A DNA stretch of 64,000 nucleotides from an uncultured Ruminiclostridium sp. (lineage in GTDB: Bacteria; Bacillota; Clostridia; Oscillospirales; Ruminococcaceae): positions 21,765 to 85,764 of the forward strand of contig CATLBH010000005.1 of NCBI GenBank assembly GCA_949878745.1. Direction: 5' to 3'. Below the pieces are notes generated by a model that was given only the letters and a program-made list of their open reading frames with translations, did no database searches and was not told the DNA's origin. Below are positions 25,031-49,505 of this stretch, piece by piece. Each line of letters starts with the position of its first letter. Within the stretch, counting starts at the first letter, position 1. The position numbers were made by a program, and so were the translations under genes.

Positions 25031-25079
25031 ATCATATTAAGCCCCGTTACATTCTTAAAATAAGTTCGGTAACTTTTCA

Positions 25080-25171
25080 TACCAATCCCTTATAAACTGA
25101 CGTCAAATCCATAGTTTAAAAAGGGATTGCACCCGAAACGCTAATCCCACGGTTTAAAAAAAGGATTAGTT
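25080..25171. mobile_element. 92 bp two-stem palindromic element (copy B) in fla/che operon
   Basis: TACCAATCCCTTATAAACT..AGTTTAAAAAGGGATT-GCACCCGAAACG-CTAATCCC..GGATTAGTT flanked by TCA (25077-25079) and TCA (25172-25174). Confidence 0.8.
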
Positions 25172-26299
25172 TCAATCCGCTTCCGGCAAGGCGGAGGGTA
25201 AAACCGTCTCCCCTTCGGCGGCGCCCGATATAAGCTCTTCCGCTTCCGCCGTCAGCTCGGGCTTGGCCTCCTTAACAGTCTTGGAGGCCTTTGCGTTTTT
25301 TGAAGTCCGAGCCGATTTTGGCTGAGGCTTCGGAGCGGGTTCGTCTTCTTCCCTGGGCGGTTCCTCTTCCTTATCCCTGAACTTTCCGCGCCCCAACTCG
25401 CCTATCATTTTAAGCTGAGTTGAAACACCCGCGTCGAATATTTCCGTTTCGTTTTCCAGCATCAGGGTACCGGATTCCGCGTCAACCACCTCAAATTCCA
25501 CATTGGCGGTGGGGGAGAAGCACTTTTCGTAAAGTCTGAAATCCGCTTCCATATCCTCGCTTAAATCGTGCTTTGAGAGGGTCACTTTTATGTTTTTGGT
25601 GTTTCTGAATTCCTTCGCGGCGGCGGATATCATTTTTTCCAGCGCTTTTTTATCCTTCTGACTGAACACCGTCATGGTTATTTTTTCCGCCACTTCCATG
25701 GCAAGGTCGAAAACGCTCCTGCGCTGTTCCGCCAGTATGTCCGCCTTTTCCTTTTCGACTTCGCCGCAAAAACGCTTAAGCTCCAAGAGACCGTCTTTGC
25801 ACTTTTTCAGTCCCTGAATATAGCCTTCCTCTTCGCCCTTCTTAAGACCCTCCATAAAGCCCTCGTCAAGGCCTCTTTTTCTTGCTTCATCATAGATTTG
25901 TTCCGACTTTTCGTCGATCTGGGTCAAAAGGCGTCTTCCCTTGTCCTTCGCTTCTTCTGTAATACGTTCCGCTTCTTCTTTTGCCTTCTCCAATTCGCTG
26001 TCGGCTCTTTTCCGCATTTCCACGGCGTATTCCTGACCTTCGCGGCGGTATTTTTCCCTAAGGTTTTCCAGTTCTTCAAAGTCTATTTTCGGGGGCTTCG
26101 GTTCTTTTTCTTCGCTTTCGGCGCCGTTCTCCCGAATTTCCTTTTCAGGCATGGATTCCTCCGAGGACTCGGTTTCTTTTTTTTCGCCGTCCGAAAGATC
26201 TTTTTCGTCCGTCTGATTTCCTATTCTGTTGTTTATTACGGCGTCGCCCTCTATTACTATGTTCTTAAAAGGATTACTGCCTTTGATAACTTCAAACAT
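25172..26299 (-). CDS. fliH: Flagellar assembly protein FliH
   Basis: Long charged coiled coil then GLLELKRFCGEVEKEKADILAEQRRSVFDLAMEVAEKI..; position between fliG and fliI. Confidence 0.88.
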   Translation of the reverse strand: MFEVIKGSNPFKNIVIEGDAVINNRIGNQTDEKDLSDGEKKETESSEESMPEKEIRENGAESEEKEPKPPKIDFEELENLREKYRREGQEYAVEMRKRADSELEKAKEEAERITEEAKDKGRRLLTQIDEKSEQIYDEARKRGLDEGFMEGLKKGEEEGYIQGLKKCKDGLLELKRFCGEVEKEKADILAEQRRSVFDLAMEVAEKITMTVFSQKDKKALEKMISAAAKEFRNTKNIKVTLSKHDLSEDMEADFRLYEKCFSPTANVEFEVVDAESGTLMLENETEIFDAGVSTQLKMIGELGRGKFRDKEEEPPREEDEPAPKPQPKSARTSKNAKASKTVKEAKPELTAEAEELISGAAEGETVLPSALPEAD

Positions 26300-35827: not shown

Positions 35828-35877
35828 TAAATCAATAAATTACTCCCATAAAAATTTGACAAGGAGATTTGCGAATC

Positions 35878-36435
35878 ATGTCAAGAAGCGCGAAAACCAA
35901 ACACGTACTTGATCTGGTTGGCTCCGAGTCTGTCAAAAAGCCTGTCCCGTCCGCTCTTCGGGAACCGTCGGGGATGGCGGCGGGTCTCGGCTCGATCCTC
36001 CAAAAGCCGCCCTCCCCCCGCGAACGCGCCGAGTTGGATATCGAAGCCATTTTCCGAGGGGAATCCCCCGAAGCCGAGTCGGGAACAAACGACGCGTCGG
36101 CAAAAAAAGGCGCGGTATTAAACCCGCCAACTGCTCCCCAACCGCCCGAAGCGCCTAAGGCCAAGGATGGGATAACGGTAATCGTAACGGAGCTTATCAA
36201 TCAGGAGTTAAAAACGGTGGTGGAACGGTTTAACCTGACCCCCTCCGACAGTAATCTGTGGGAGCTTACCAGAAGCGCCATTGAAACGATTCGGCCGGAG
36301 TTTTCGAGGAACGAGAAGGAATATATTGAAAAATGCGAGAAACTCAGGCCGAGGGTTATTAAAGAGATGACGAAAGCGGCTATTAAGGTTATGGCTAAGG
36401 AGAAGAAAAAAAACGAATCTCAGAACAATTCTTAA
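35878..36435 (+). CDS. Hypothetical protein; C-terminal ~80 aa weakly resembles ComFB-like proteins
   Basis: MSRSAKTKHVLDLVGSE.. disordered N-terminus, then VIVTELINQELKTVVERFNLTPSDSNLWELTRSAIETIRPEFSRNEKEYIEKCEKLRPRVIKEMTKAAIKVMAKEKK. Confidence 0.55.
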   Translation: MSRSAKTKHVLDLVGSESVKKPVPSALREPSGMAAGLGSILQKPPSPRERAELDIEAIFRGESPEAESGTNDASAKKGAVLNPPTAPQPPEAPKAKDGITVIVTELINQELKTVVERFNLTPSDSNLWELTRSAIETIRPEFSRNEKEYIEKCEKLRPRVIKEMTKAAIKVMAKEKKKNESQNNS

Positions 36436-36448
36436 AGTATGCAATTAA

Positions 36449-36540
36449 TACTAATCCCTTTTAAAACTGTTGGATTAGTGCTTTGGGTGTAGTCCCTTTT
36501 TAAACTGTGTGTATTTCGTCAGTTTAAAAAGGGACTGGGA
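36449..36540. mobile_element. 92 bp two-stem palindromic element (copy A)
   Basis: TACTAATCC..GGATTAGT-GCTTTGGGTGTA-GTCCCTTTTTAAACT..AGTTTAAAAAGGGACTGGGA; TSD TAA (36446-36448, 36541-36543). Confidence 0.8.
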
Positions 36541-36549
36541 TAAAATACG

Positions 36550-36595
36550 AATACCCGTTTGAAAAGCGGTTTTGGCTTTTCAAACGGGTATTTTT
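36550..36595 (+). terminator. Rho-independent terminator-like hairpin
   Basis: AATACCCGTTTGAAAAGC-GGTTTTG-GCTTTTCAAACGGGTATTTTT. Confidence 0.75.
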
Positions 36596-36625
36596 AATCT
36601 TTCACGGATAATTATAACTGCATTA

Positions 36626-36736
36626 TACTATTTTCAAATTAAAAAGATTACAAAACTTAGTGGATAATTTGAAAATAGTGCTTTGGGTGTAATTTCATCT
36701 TAAAAAGGTTAGAATCTTTTTAAGATGAAATTAGTA
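36626..36736. mobile_element. 111 bp two-stem palindromic element (copy C)
   Basis: TACTATTTTCAAATTA..TAATTTGAAAATAGT-GCTTTGGGTGTA-ATTTCATCTTAAAAAG..CTTTTTAAGATGAAATTAGTA; TSD TTA on both sides. Confidence 0.8.
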
Positions 36737-36779
36737 TTATATCAATCTCTTGTTAAAGCGTGGGATTGACATAATCCAT

Positions 36780-38030
36780 TTATCTTCCAATAACTCTGTC
36801 GGCTTTCATAGGCAGCCGAGTGTCCAATTTCCAAACGCCGTCCTCATATTTGACCGTAATCGGCAGCGTGTAGCTGTTTTCGCCGTCGCTCCAGCTTACC
36901 GCCGAAGTTACGTCAAAGGTGCTCATAGACCTGTTTTCATACTCCGCAAGGGAAAATTCCCCCATTTGTGGGAGCACCGCGCCGTTTATCAGGTATAGAT
37001 GTCCGTCCTTTTCCACATAGCTTCTGTTCACGTAAAGCCTTATATAGCTTTCGGCGATTTCGGATGTAAAGGTGTCTCTTATAAAACCGCGCATTTCCTC
37101 AACGGTCATAAAGGGCTCCACCTCCAGGCCGTTGTAAAAGCCGTGGCCGTAGATATCGTTTTCAATGGTGACAAGCTGAGGGTTCCAATCGCCGTTTTGG
37201 TCCTTTACCGCTTCGGCGCTTCCGAATATCTTGTCCAAAGTGACTCTTTCGTCTATCAGAAGGCGGCTGAATACGGCGATTTCACCCGTTACGGTTTCGT
37301 CCTCATACATACGGACAACCCAGCCTCTTACGCCGTTAAGCATATCGTAGGAGCGCCATATATATTTGTCCCCCACCGTTCCCAACGCCACCACCTCCGC
37401 CGTGGTTTCGTCCAGACGGGTTATTACCGCGGAGGAAATATCTATAGTTACGGGGGTTTCTTTGTCTGATGCCAAAAGTTCCAGACCCTCTTCGCTTTCT
37501 TTTATAACCTCGGGGAGCATATTTTCAACTTCCTCCCCGTATTTATCCTCCCAGAAGGAATACTTGAAGCCCTCGTACATTCTCACCGTAAGTTCGTTCA
37601 TATCCGAAGCGTATTCGGGATCAATAGCGACATATCCCGACACCGCCTCGCCCTTTGTGGGAATAAGGGTGTGGGCGCCAAAGAAAACGCTGTTCGCCGT
37701 TTCCGCCGCCTTAATTTTTTCCTTGAATTCCGAAAGGCGCTCCGCGTCCTCAACGGAGCCGGAGGGATAAGGGGCGGGGAAGCCGTCGGGAGTCGGAGCG
37801 GTTTCCGTGGTGATATCCTCCGTCCCGGCGGTTGTGGAAGAGGTGTTTTCGGGCTGATCTTCCACCGCGCTCACCCTGGCGGTGGTGGTTTCTTCTAATG
37901 GGAGACGTTGGGGATCCGAAGAAGGGGTCGTGTTGGTGAGGTTTGACTGATTGTTCGGCGCTTCCTCCGTTTTACAGGCGGAAAAGAGAAGCGCCGCGGC
38001 GATGGCCAAGGCTATTGTTCTTTTTTTCAT
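36780..38030 (-). CDS. Hypothetical lipoprotein
   Basis: MKKRTIALAIAAALLFSACKTEE lipobox; Thr/Pro-rich linker; no family recognised. Confidence 0.75.
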   Translation of the reverse strand: MKKRTIALAIAAALLFSACKTEEAPNNQSNLTNTTPSSDPQRLPLEETTTARVSAVEDQPENTSSTTAGTEDITTETAPTPDGFPAPYPSGSVEDAERLSEFKEKIKAAETANSVFFGAHTLIPTKGEAVSGYVAIDPEYASDMNELTVRMYEGFKYSFWEDKYGEEVENMLPEVIKESEEGLELLASDKETPVTIDISSAVITRLDETTAEVVALGTVGDKYIWRSYDMLNGVRGWVVRMYEDETVTGEIAVFSRLLIDERVTLDKIFGSAEAVKDQNGDWNPQLVTIENDIYGHGFYNGLEVEPFMTVEEMRGFIRDTFTSEIAESYIRLYVNRSYVEKDGHLYLINGAVLPQMGEFSLAEYENRSMSTFDVTSAVSWSDGENSYTLPITVKYEDGVWKLDTRLPMKADRVIGR

Positions 38031-45889: not shown

Positions 45890-46097
45890 ATGAGACAAAC
45901 AAGAAGTTACGACAAGGAGTACAAGGTACAGGCGGTAAAGTTGGCGAAATCGAGGGGAAGGAAAGCAGCGGCAGCGAAACTGGGGATACCCGAGGGAACG
46001 CTTAGCGGGTGGGTTCACAAGGCGAAAAGCGGGCATATGGATTTGGGGTTCGGCGAACAAATATTCGAAACCGCGCTGACACTCGTCGCCGAAAACT
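45890..46097 (+). pseudogene. IS3-family OrfA (HTH) remnant, 3' truncated
   Basis: MRQTRSYDKEYKVQAVKLAKSRGRKAAAAKLGIPEGTLSGWVHKAKSGHMDLGFGEQ..; collinear with 50246 onward; identity ends near 46095. Confidence 0.85.
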
Positions 46098-46766
46098 AAT
46101 CAACGCAGTGCTGTACGTTGTTGACAGCGGCTGCAAATGGAGACAATTGCCACATGATTTTCCACCGTATACAACGGTATCGAATTTTTACTATAAGGCA
46201 GTTCGTGAGGGTTTATGGGAGAAAATATTGAAAGTAACGGTCATCAAAACTCGGACAGAAGCAGGAAAATCATCTGAGCCGAGTTATGCTCTGATTGATT
46301 CACAAAGTGTAAAACCCGTATATTCTTCAGATAAACGGGGTTATGACGGGGAAAAAACAAAAGGACGAAAACGACATATAGTAACCGATATCATGGGAAA
46401 TTTGCTTGCCGTTCACGTTCACGCTGCAAATATACATGACACAAAAGGCGGGGTGTATACTTTTGAAAAAGCGCTAAATCATTATCCAAGTATAGAAGCC
46501 GGCTGTGCCGATGAGGGTTACAGAGGAACGTTCAAAAATACATTCGAAATATTCCATAACATTAGAATTGATATTTCAAAACAGATAAAGCCTGTTTTTG
46601 AGGTTATGCTCAAACGTTGGCGAGTGGAGAGAACCTTTTCATGGCTTGGTCATTCGAGACGTCTTTCTAAAGATTATGAAATCCAGACCGTTTATGCTGA
46701 ATCCATGATTATCATTTCCCATTTCCATACTTTACTTAAACGATTTTAGTCTATTGGTACAGGTTC
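46097..46766 (+). pseudogene. IS5-family transposase, 5' truncated, fused to the IS3 remnant
   Basis: LINAVLYVVDSGCKWRQLPHDFPPYTTVSNFYYKAVREG..DSQSVKPVYSSDKRGYDGEKTKGRKRHIVTD..; lacks the N-terminal DLTDAQWELIKEYFP segment; right end ..GGTACAGGTTC|TAA. Confidence 0.85.
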
Positions 46767-48702: not shown

Positions 48703-49505
48703 GTACTTGTCCAAATAGAAAAAATATGGTATAATAGAATAATGAGATACACAAGTGATTTAACGGACGCACAGTGGGAACTGATAAAAGAATATTTTCC
48801 GGCAGGAAACAAAAGCAAGTACGAGAAAAGAGAGATGGAGAATGCAGTATTATATCTCGTAAAAACAGGCTGCCAATGGAGAAATCTGCCGATAGATTTT
48901 CCAAAATGGAAAGCAGTTTCAATGTTCTTTTATCGTGCCAAAAAGAATGGGGCATGGGAAAAGGCACAACGTATGTTGGTGAAAAAAATCCGTACCCAAA
49001 AGGGAAAAAATGAAGAACCGACATACGCACTAATAGACTCACAATCCGTAAAAACAACCTCTGCAAATGATAATAGAGGTTATGACGGGGGAAAAAACAA
49101 AAGGACGAAAGCGACACATAGTTACTGATACTTGGGGAATCTTTTGTGTGTTCATGTGTATGCTGCAAATATTCATGATACAAAGGGCGGCGTGCTTACC
49201 TGTGAAAAGGCGCTTTATCGTTATCCGACAATTGTTGCGGGGTGCGCTGATCAAGGTTATCGCGGAACATTCAAAAATACTTTTGAGTTTTTTCATAATA
49301 TCAGAATTGATATATCTCCACGCATTAAAAATAATTTTGAGGTGCAGCCTATTCGTTGGATTGTCGAACGGACTTTTGGATGGATGACTTGGTCTCGCCG
49401 TCTTGCCAAAGACTATGAAATTAAATCCGTTTATGCTGAAACTATGTGCACTATTTCAAACCTTGATACGCTTTTGCGTAGATTTTAGTCTATGTGGAAA
49501 AGTTC
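48703..49505 (+). mobile_element. IS5-family (IS427/IS1031-like) insertion sequence, 803 bp, TSD TTA
   Basis: TIRs GTACTTGTCCAAATAGA / GAACTTTTCCACATAGA; flanked by TTA (48700-48702) and TTA (49506-49508); transposase MRYTSDLTDAQWELIKEYFPAGNK.. within. Confidence 0.85.
48742..49488 (+). CDS. IS5-family transposase in two overlapping frames (48742..49128 and 49132..49488)
   Basis: Frame changes at GACGGGGGAAAAAACAAAAGG (about 49084); the related copy at 46350 reads GACGGGGAAAAAACAAAAGG in one frame. Confidence 0.8.

Follow-up and report, generated by a model that had tools for sequence, protein, structure and literature searches.

How can a short repeated DNA element change the sequence of both its stems and still keep them paired? 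The question is raised by copy C, a complete 111-bp element at positions 36626-36736 (+) of the 64,000-nucleotide stretch from an uncultured Ruminiclostridium sp. analysed here (the window). A sequence-only reading had described it as keeping its ends and linker between self-complementary stems, and direct reading together with a repeat search showed that such an element is indeed present. Copy C runs from TACTA to a right terminus GTA (36734-36736, read directly and compared across copies), and is flanked by TTA target-site duplications at 36623-36625 and 36737-36739, as judged from the sequence and from flank statistics. The repeat search and folding placed the outer arm L of stem 1 at 36627-36641 and its inner arm L' at 36665-36679 (ACTATTTTCAAATTA, 15 of 15 positions paired). 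Conservation across copies defined the linker core GCTTTGGGTG at 36680-36689, followed by the inner arm R of stem 2 at 36690-36710 (repeat search and covariation with the right end) and the outer arm R' at 36713-36733 (repeat search and fold), all on the + strand. Two perfect or near-perfect hairpins thus surround GCTTTGGGTGTA. The second had been taken for a 16-bp stem; the hairpin is there, but its arms are 21 nt each (95% complementary) and take in the final TA of the linker. When 36623-36742 was folded as single-stranded DNA, the energy was -24.6 kcal/mol (z -8.2), and none of 200 shuffled sequences folded as well.

Copy C is intergenic, lying between the converging ORFs 35869-36435 (+) and 36780-38030 (-), and shares the gap with copy A and a terminator-like hairpin. 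Copy A, identified by direct reading and type comparison, is a 92-bp A-type element at 36449-36540 (+) with TAA at 36446-36448 and 36541-36543 and a decayed right end (GGGA for GGTA); the matching of the earlier labels A and B to copies is our own. Between copies A and C, positions 36539-36603 form a strong terminator-like inverted repeat with 29-nt arms that are 83% complementary. The two-hairpin filter also found an A-like copy of 92 bp at 25080-25171 (-), with TGA flanks at 25172-25174 and 25077-25079 and a decayed first base (AACT for TACT).

To place copy C among its relatives, we counted its sequences in the window's genome (2.67 Mb, 108 contigs). Within the window the linker sequence is found exactly twice, in copy A at 36480 and in copy C at 36680, and the 12-mer GCTTTGGGTGTA occurs 11 times and TAGTGCTTYGGGTGYR 49 times in the genome, with zero occurrences of either reversed control. 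Fifteen near-full-length copies (84-100% identity) make up the C-type subfamily, and at least 40 copies, copy A included, make up the A-type subfamily, a lower bound since 40 of 162 first-look candidates were scored. Whole-arm replacement, as it had been called, therefore stands as a difference between types and not as an event in one single copy, because copy C is a member of a subfamily. Further types with other arms were found in G000 and other genomes of its genus, among them those that we lettered D (ACTATTTGCAAATCA), E (ACTATTAACC), E' (ACTATTATCC), G (ACTAATCTTTGG), K (ACTATTCTC) and M (ACTATTTCT); others exist. About 40 identical or near-identical E' copies are present in G016, many at contig ends. 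The general plan across types is TNA, then T-ACTR..arm..YAGT-GCTTYGGGTG-YR-AT..arm..AT-YR-GTA, then TNA, and what all types have in common is the ends (TACTR...GTA between TNA triplets) and the core GCTTYGGGTG, which in the G-type reads GTTTCGGGTG. Terminal inverted repeats are present (TACTR... and ...YAGTA), with L and R' alike. The elements are small (about 90-190 bp), multi-copy and without a transposase gene, and 40 of 42 copies lie outside ORFs by rough ORF calls. Among the 24 G000 copies with both neighbours near, rough gene calls gave 11 convergent, 13 tandem and 0 divergent contexts. A further minimal type was seen in L353: at 2441-2480, TAA triplets flank a lone 40-bp hairpin with TACTAATACC arms.

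The flanks show that these elements move. The two-hairpin filter collected 107 elements, of which 77 had an intact GTA end and flanks of 3 nt or more on each side. Identical flanking triplets were found in 67 of the 77, all of them TNA (TAA 37, TTA 23, TGA 5, TCA 2), and in the remaining 10 the flanks differed by one or more bases. Two nested insertions, read by eye, show the duplication directly: in L045 an A-type element sits inside a G-type copy (ATCT, TTA, A-type, TTA, ATCAT), and in L247 an A-like element sits inside a 189-nt element (GCATT, TAA, A-like, TAA, AAAG). Both have a clean 3-bp duplication, and the interrupted sequence is known from other copies. An exact-match search for empty sites returned none. 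Because of the 67 identical TNA flanks and the two nested insertions, the family of copy C is mobile and makes a 3-bp TNA target duplication, which adds to the earlier reading of this locus. Some copies with TNA flanks have a single domain only (L030, L033, L036, L352, L360, L364); the direct repeats L'/R' and L/R can give such copies by deletion after insertion. In L009, L032 and L206 the right end stops at TTAG and is followed by GGCGTATCTGAAAAC, the end of another repeat or IS, and TTAG within the elements appears to have been targeted repeatedly; in L206 an IS5-type transposase fragment follows. In L053, L062 and L042 each element is preceded by AAGGAACCGCTGATTAA, and the repeat family bearing it appears to be a recurrent landing site.

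It had been proposed that many copies would show covarying arms around a conserved linker, and they do. In 36 distinct stem sets, hairpin 1 was 94% and hairpin 2 was 93% Watson-Crick paired, compared with means of 74% (maximum 81%) and 59% (maximum 69%) in 2000 partner shuffles, a procedure that ignores relatedness among the stem sets. In the 96 elements with a recognisable right end, the two final letters of the linker and the pair preceding GTA were TA/TA in 54, CA/TG in 29, TG/CA in 7 and other in 6. Since these letters are paired in 90 of 96 elements, they belong to stem 2. Most types repeat a short motif in each of the four arms (AACC in E, ATCC in E', for example), and two folds are therefore possible: two hairpins, or one long hairpin tipped by the core. 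Where L is unlike R', hairpin pairing is still kept, as seen in type D, the K-type copy L126 and the left end of the G070 large elements described below. Over 7 positions in 70 elements, identity was 97% between R' and R, 80% between L and L' and 78% between L and R', the L to L' figure being depressed by the A-type, in which stem 1 has only 8-9 bp.

Covariation of this kind had been read as selection on structure. The covariation is confirmed, but selection is not thereby established. If an RNA were under selection, G-T pairs on its strand should outnumber A-C pairs, and if individual copies were functional, their changes should be compensated. Mispairs in 70 distinct small elements amounted to 18 G-T and 16 A-C among 2139 stem positions, numbers so similar that RNA pairing is indicated for neither strand. 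Single, uncompensated changes exceeded matched double changes within subfamilies (A, 23 versus 5; C, 11 versus 1; D, 15 versus 2; E, 10 versus 8). Matched doubles are still more than independence predicts (in the A-type, 5 versus 0.83 expected of any kind), and L096, L188 and L027 each carry one double transversion, isolated in an otherwise near-consensus subfamily. It is thus very improbable that the element is transcribed into a structured RNA whose two-hairpin or two-cloverleaf form is selected for its function. That idea would fit the covariation and the very stable folds, such as that of the large relative, yet besides the lack of wobble tolerance, the elements have no Rfam match at gathering score, and the tandem contexts among the 24 G000 copies split into 7 co-oriented and 6 opposed (rough gene calls). 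The Rfam gathering-score scan of the window returned only one tRNA, and an E-value scan of seven relative loci gave matches only below the families' gathering scores.

Isolated right ends in G001 led to a larger relative of 182-191 nt that has these ends too; its halves are each built as a cloverleaf, a stem enclosing three hairpins. The left-half stems are ATATCCG/CGGATAT, ATAACCA/TGGTTAT or ATACCCA/TGGGTAT, and about 14 nt around GTACGTTCAATACA connect the two halves. The 189-nt relative folds at -111 kcal/mol (z -14.8), with the outer ends closed on each other in the minimum-energy fold, whereas a G070 copy folds at -101 kcal/mol (z -11.6) as two separate domains. Of the 21 distinct complete copies, 20 were aligned (L249, which contains N letters, was omitted), and 21 of 75 predicted pairs had matched double changes. 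All 21 distinct complete large elements (L220-L305) have TTA in their own orientation and none TAA; the small elements use both.

The loops of this relative carry a different kind of mark. Among 35 distinct copies, 6 of 29 same-length variant pairs of loops on 7-nt stems were exact reverse complements, none was an exact reversal, and the only complements were the four AAA/TTT pairs. These four, which are weak homopolymers, are among the six; TTC/GAA and AATA/TATT are unambiguous. Two loops of L252 differ in this way, with TTT in place of AAA and, in a second hairpin, GAA in place of TTC; L277 has AATA for TATT, L302, L367 and L296 have AAA/TTT swaps, and by eye in the alignment L220 has the 7-nt loop GACAAGC for GCTTGTC. 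Template switching has been described as making and maintaining hairpins and inverting loops or spacers (in the parts of PMC8794818 and PMC8604942 available to us), and by this analogy we take the loop inversions as a probable mark of template switching between palindrome arms. Among 48 hairpin-1 and 37 hairpin-2 loop variants of the small elements no loop inversion was seen, and for this reason we only infer that the process extends to copy C. Taken together, the similar numbers of G-T and A-C mispairs, the excess of uncompensated single changes and the inverted loops of the 189-nt relative suggest that at least some of the covariation arose by mutation at the DNA level.

We therefore think it somewhat probable that copy C is a non-autonomous, MITE-like element whose ends and core are kept by a putative transposase and whose stems are kept paired largely at the DNA level. 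A transposase encoded elsewhere would act on the ends, perhaps aided by the core, and its action would hold both fixed. The arms would be free to drift in sequence, and, each half being a palindrome, replication would re-copy one arm from the other by template switching, often turning a one-arm change into a matched double change and sometimes inverting a loop. Copies that transpose would found subfamilies with new, still paired arms, while old copies would decay. In most types the four arms agree with one another (L, L', R and R' all go from AACC to ATCC, for example), which suggests that some end-proximal bases double as a repeated transposase binding site. Several observations weigh against this proposal: the loci examined gave no autonomous element or transposase with TACTA ends, the small elements gave no loop inversion, doubles shared by several copies are equally explicable as subfamily ancestry under selection, compensated changes in the large element outnumber single ones (104 versus 66), and template switching does not account for the conserved core.

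Alternatively, pairing may be selected at the transposition step itself, by an enzyme that reads folded single-stranded hairpins and leaves the arm sequence free, much as integron integrases read attC and IS608-type transposases read their end hairpins. In its favour, all types that multiplied in one genome were seen to have only ends, core and pairing in common, hairpin 2 stays locally paired also where L is unlike R' (R' to R, 97%), and old copies decay while subfamily founders are paired. We nevertheless regard it as unlikely. The 3-bp duplication follows the target (TAA, TTA, TGA, TCA), and enzymes of the IS200/IS605 type are not known to make such duplications. Single-domain copies with TNA flanks exist, though they may be deletions after insertion. 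The Y1 transposase (PF01797) had no match in the carriers G001, G016, G049 and G055 (completeness 86, 76, 96 and 86%), but was found in 20 of 71 genomes, non-carriers included, with a match or fragment in the carriers G000, G036, G070 and G008. A RAYT/REPIN link was accordingly dropped, as the Y1 search over the 71 genomes showed no association with the elements. Less likely still is a putative enzyme outside the IS200/IS605 and integron kinds that would read folded DNA (ends, GCTTYGGGTG core and hairpin shape, but not the sequence of the arms) and make a 3-bp TNA duplication, with template switching supplying new paired arms.

The target duplication also fits an ordinary double-stranded MITE, in which a DDE transposase, perhaps of the IS1031 group of the IS5 family, binds the terminal inverted repeats and, as additional sites, the inner arms, with a separate transposase variant behind each subfamily. 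The IS1031 group uses a TNA target with a 3-bp duplication (PMC12016507, consulted in part), and here L and R' are alike within a type and different between types. We consider this rather improbable, as none of 14 PF01609 matches in six carriers was flanked by matched TACTA ends in the stretches read, and such an element alone gives no reason for the inner arms and internal hairpins to stay paired. The window holds two decayed IS5-family transposase genes, at 46058-46752 and about 48740-49490; the former is 98% identical to a fuller copy in G000 (C4, L207), whose ends are AGAACCTGTACCAAT and not TACTA. An IS5/DDE partner was rejected after the ends at PF01609 matches in the six carriers had been inspected and no TACTA end pair seen, as was the IS fragment in L206, which abuts an element but has GGGCGTATCTGAAAAC at that side. 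A search of the fetched loci for an autonomous element with matched ends 300-3500 bp apart, and inspection of isolated ends, gave only small elements, halves, and decayed or truncated copies.

The distribution of the large and small elements is closely matched. Among 71 genus genomes, all drafts, real small elements occur in 8 (G000, G001, G008, G016, G036, G049, G055, G070), and the large relative also in 8, seven of which (G001, G008, G016, G036, G049, G055, G070) carry the small elements and one of which (G062) has a fragment only. Pattern matches in G002 and G030 (L083, L088) were without hairpins and were taken as chance. The exact linker pattern was absent from 78 genomes outside the genus, and in a scan of contig collections the real elements among the matches listed (at least 91 stretches) fall in records that match genus genomes in length and position; L141 (Flavobacteriaceae) passed a loose two-hairpin filter, yet is not an element. 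None of 41 stretches from viral contigs had a hairpin on either side of the core, and the 189-nt element had no match in plasmids or phages. As far as searched, the family is confined to one genus, probably of the Oscillospiraceae, and we found no publication on it in the open-access literature, judged by titles and abstracts.

Covariation is standard evidence for functional RNA structure. Since the covariation here is strong and comes with no RNA wobble sign, with decaying copies and with inverted loops, the family offers a natural test of template switching versus selection as the source of 'compensatory evolution', and it points to a transposition system for which element arms can be rewritten almost completely.

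How does the family compare with known systems? Integron attC sites have R and L core-site boxes, extrahelical bases and an integrase nearby, and the 3-bp duplication here speaks against likeness to them. The palindrome ends of REPINs carry a GTAG-type tag and are conserved; here the arms differ between types. In the IS1031 group, a TNA target and 3-bp duplication are found as here, but the example ends begin GAACCTGT and not TACTA (partial text of PMC12016507); no IS1031-like gene with TACTA ends was found in the carriers' stretches read, and the IS5-type copy in G000 has its own, unmatched ends. BOX, RUP and SPRITE of pneumococcus are likewise strongly folded multi-copy repeats, BOX and RUP have inverted ends and a target duplication, and BOX is modular; BOX varies by module number, whereas here the stems are rewritten, and the host is another, a separation that we draw from the description in part of PMC3049150. 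REPINs of the REP-RAYT system, as far as the consulted part of PMC3116915 describes them, resemble the present elements in their palindrome doublet with spacer, long-hairpin or 'clover' folds, compensatory changes and single units as remnants, but they keep the palindrome ends and vary the spacer, while in the present family it is the arms that vary, around a constant spacer core. The 3-bp target duplication and the failure to find a Y1 transposase in four carriers are further differences. MITEs are similarly short, geneless and mainly intergenic, with terminal inverted repeats, target duplication and stable folds (excerpts of PMC10969869). Ends in common with an autonomous host element, which mark MITEs, were seen in none of the stretches read, from genomes that are drafts and partly incomplete. 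Unlike MITEs, the present elements have two separate palindromic domains around a conserved core, and their stems change from subfamily to subfamily around persistent ends and core. With hairpins evolving by template switching they share matched double changes and inverted loops or spacers; the cases in the available parts of PMC8794818 and PMC8604942 are rRNA, microRNA and yeast genes, whereas here the process would act on a mobile-element family.
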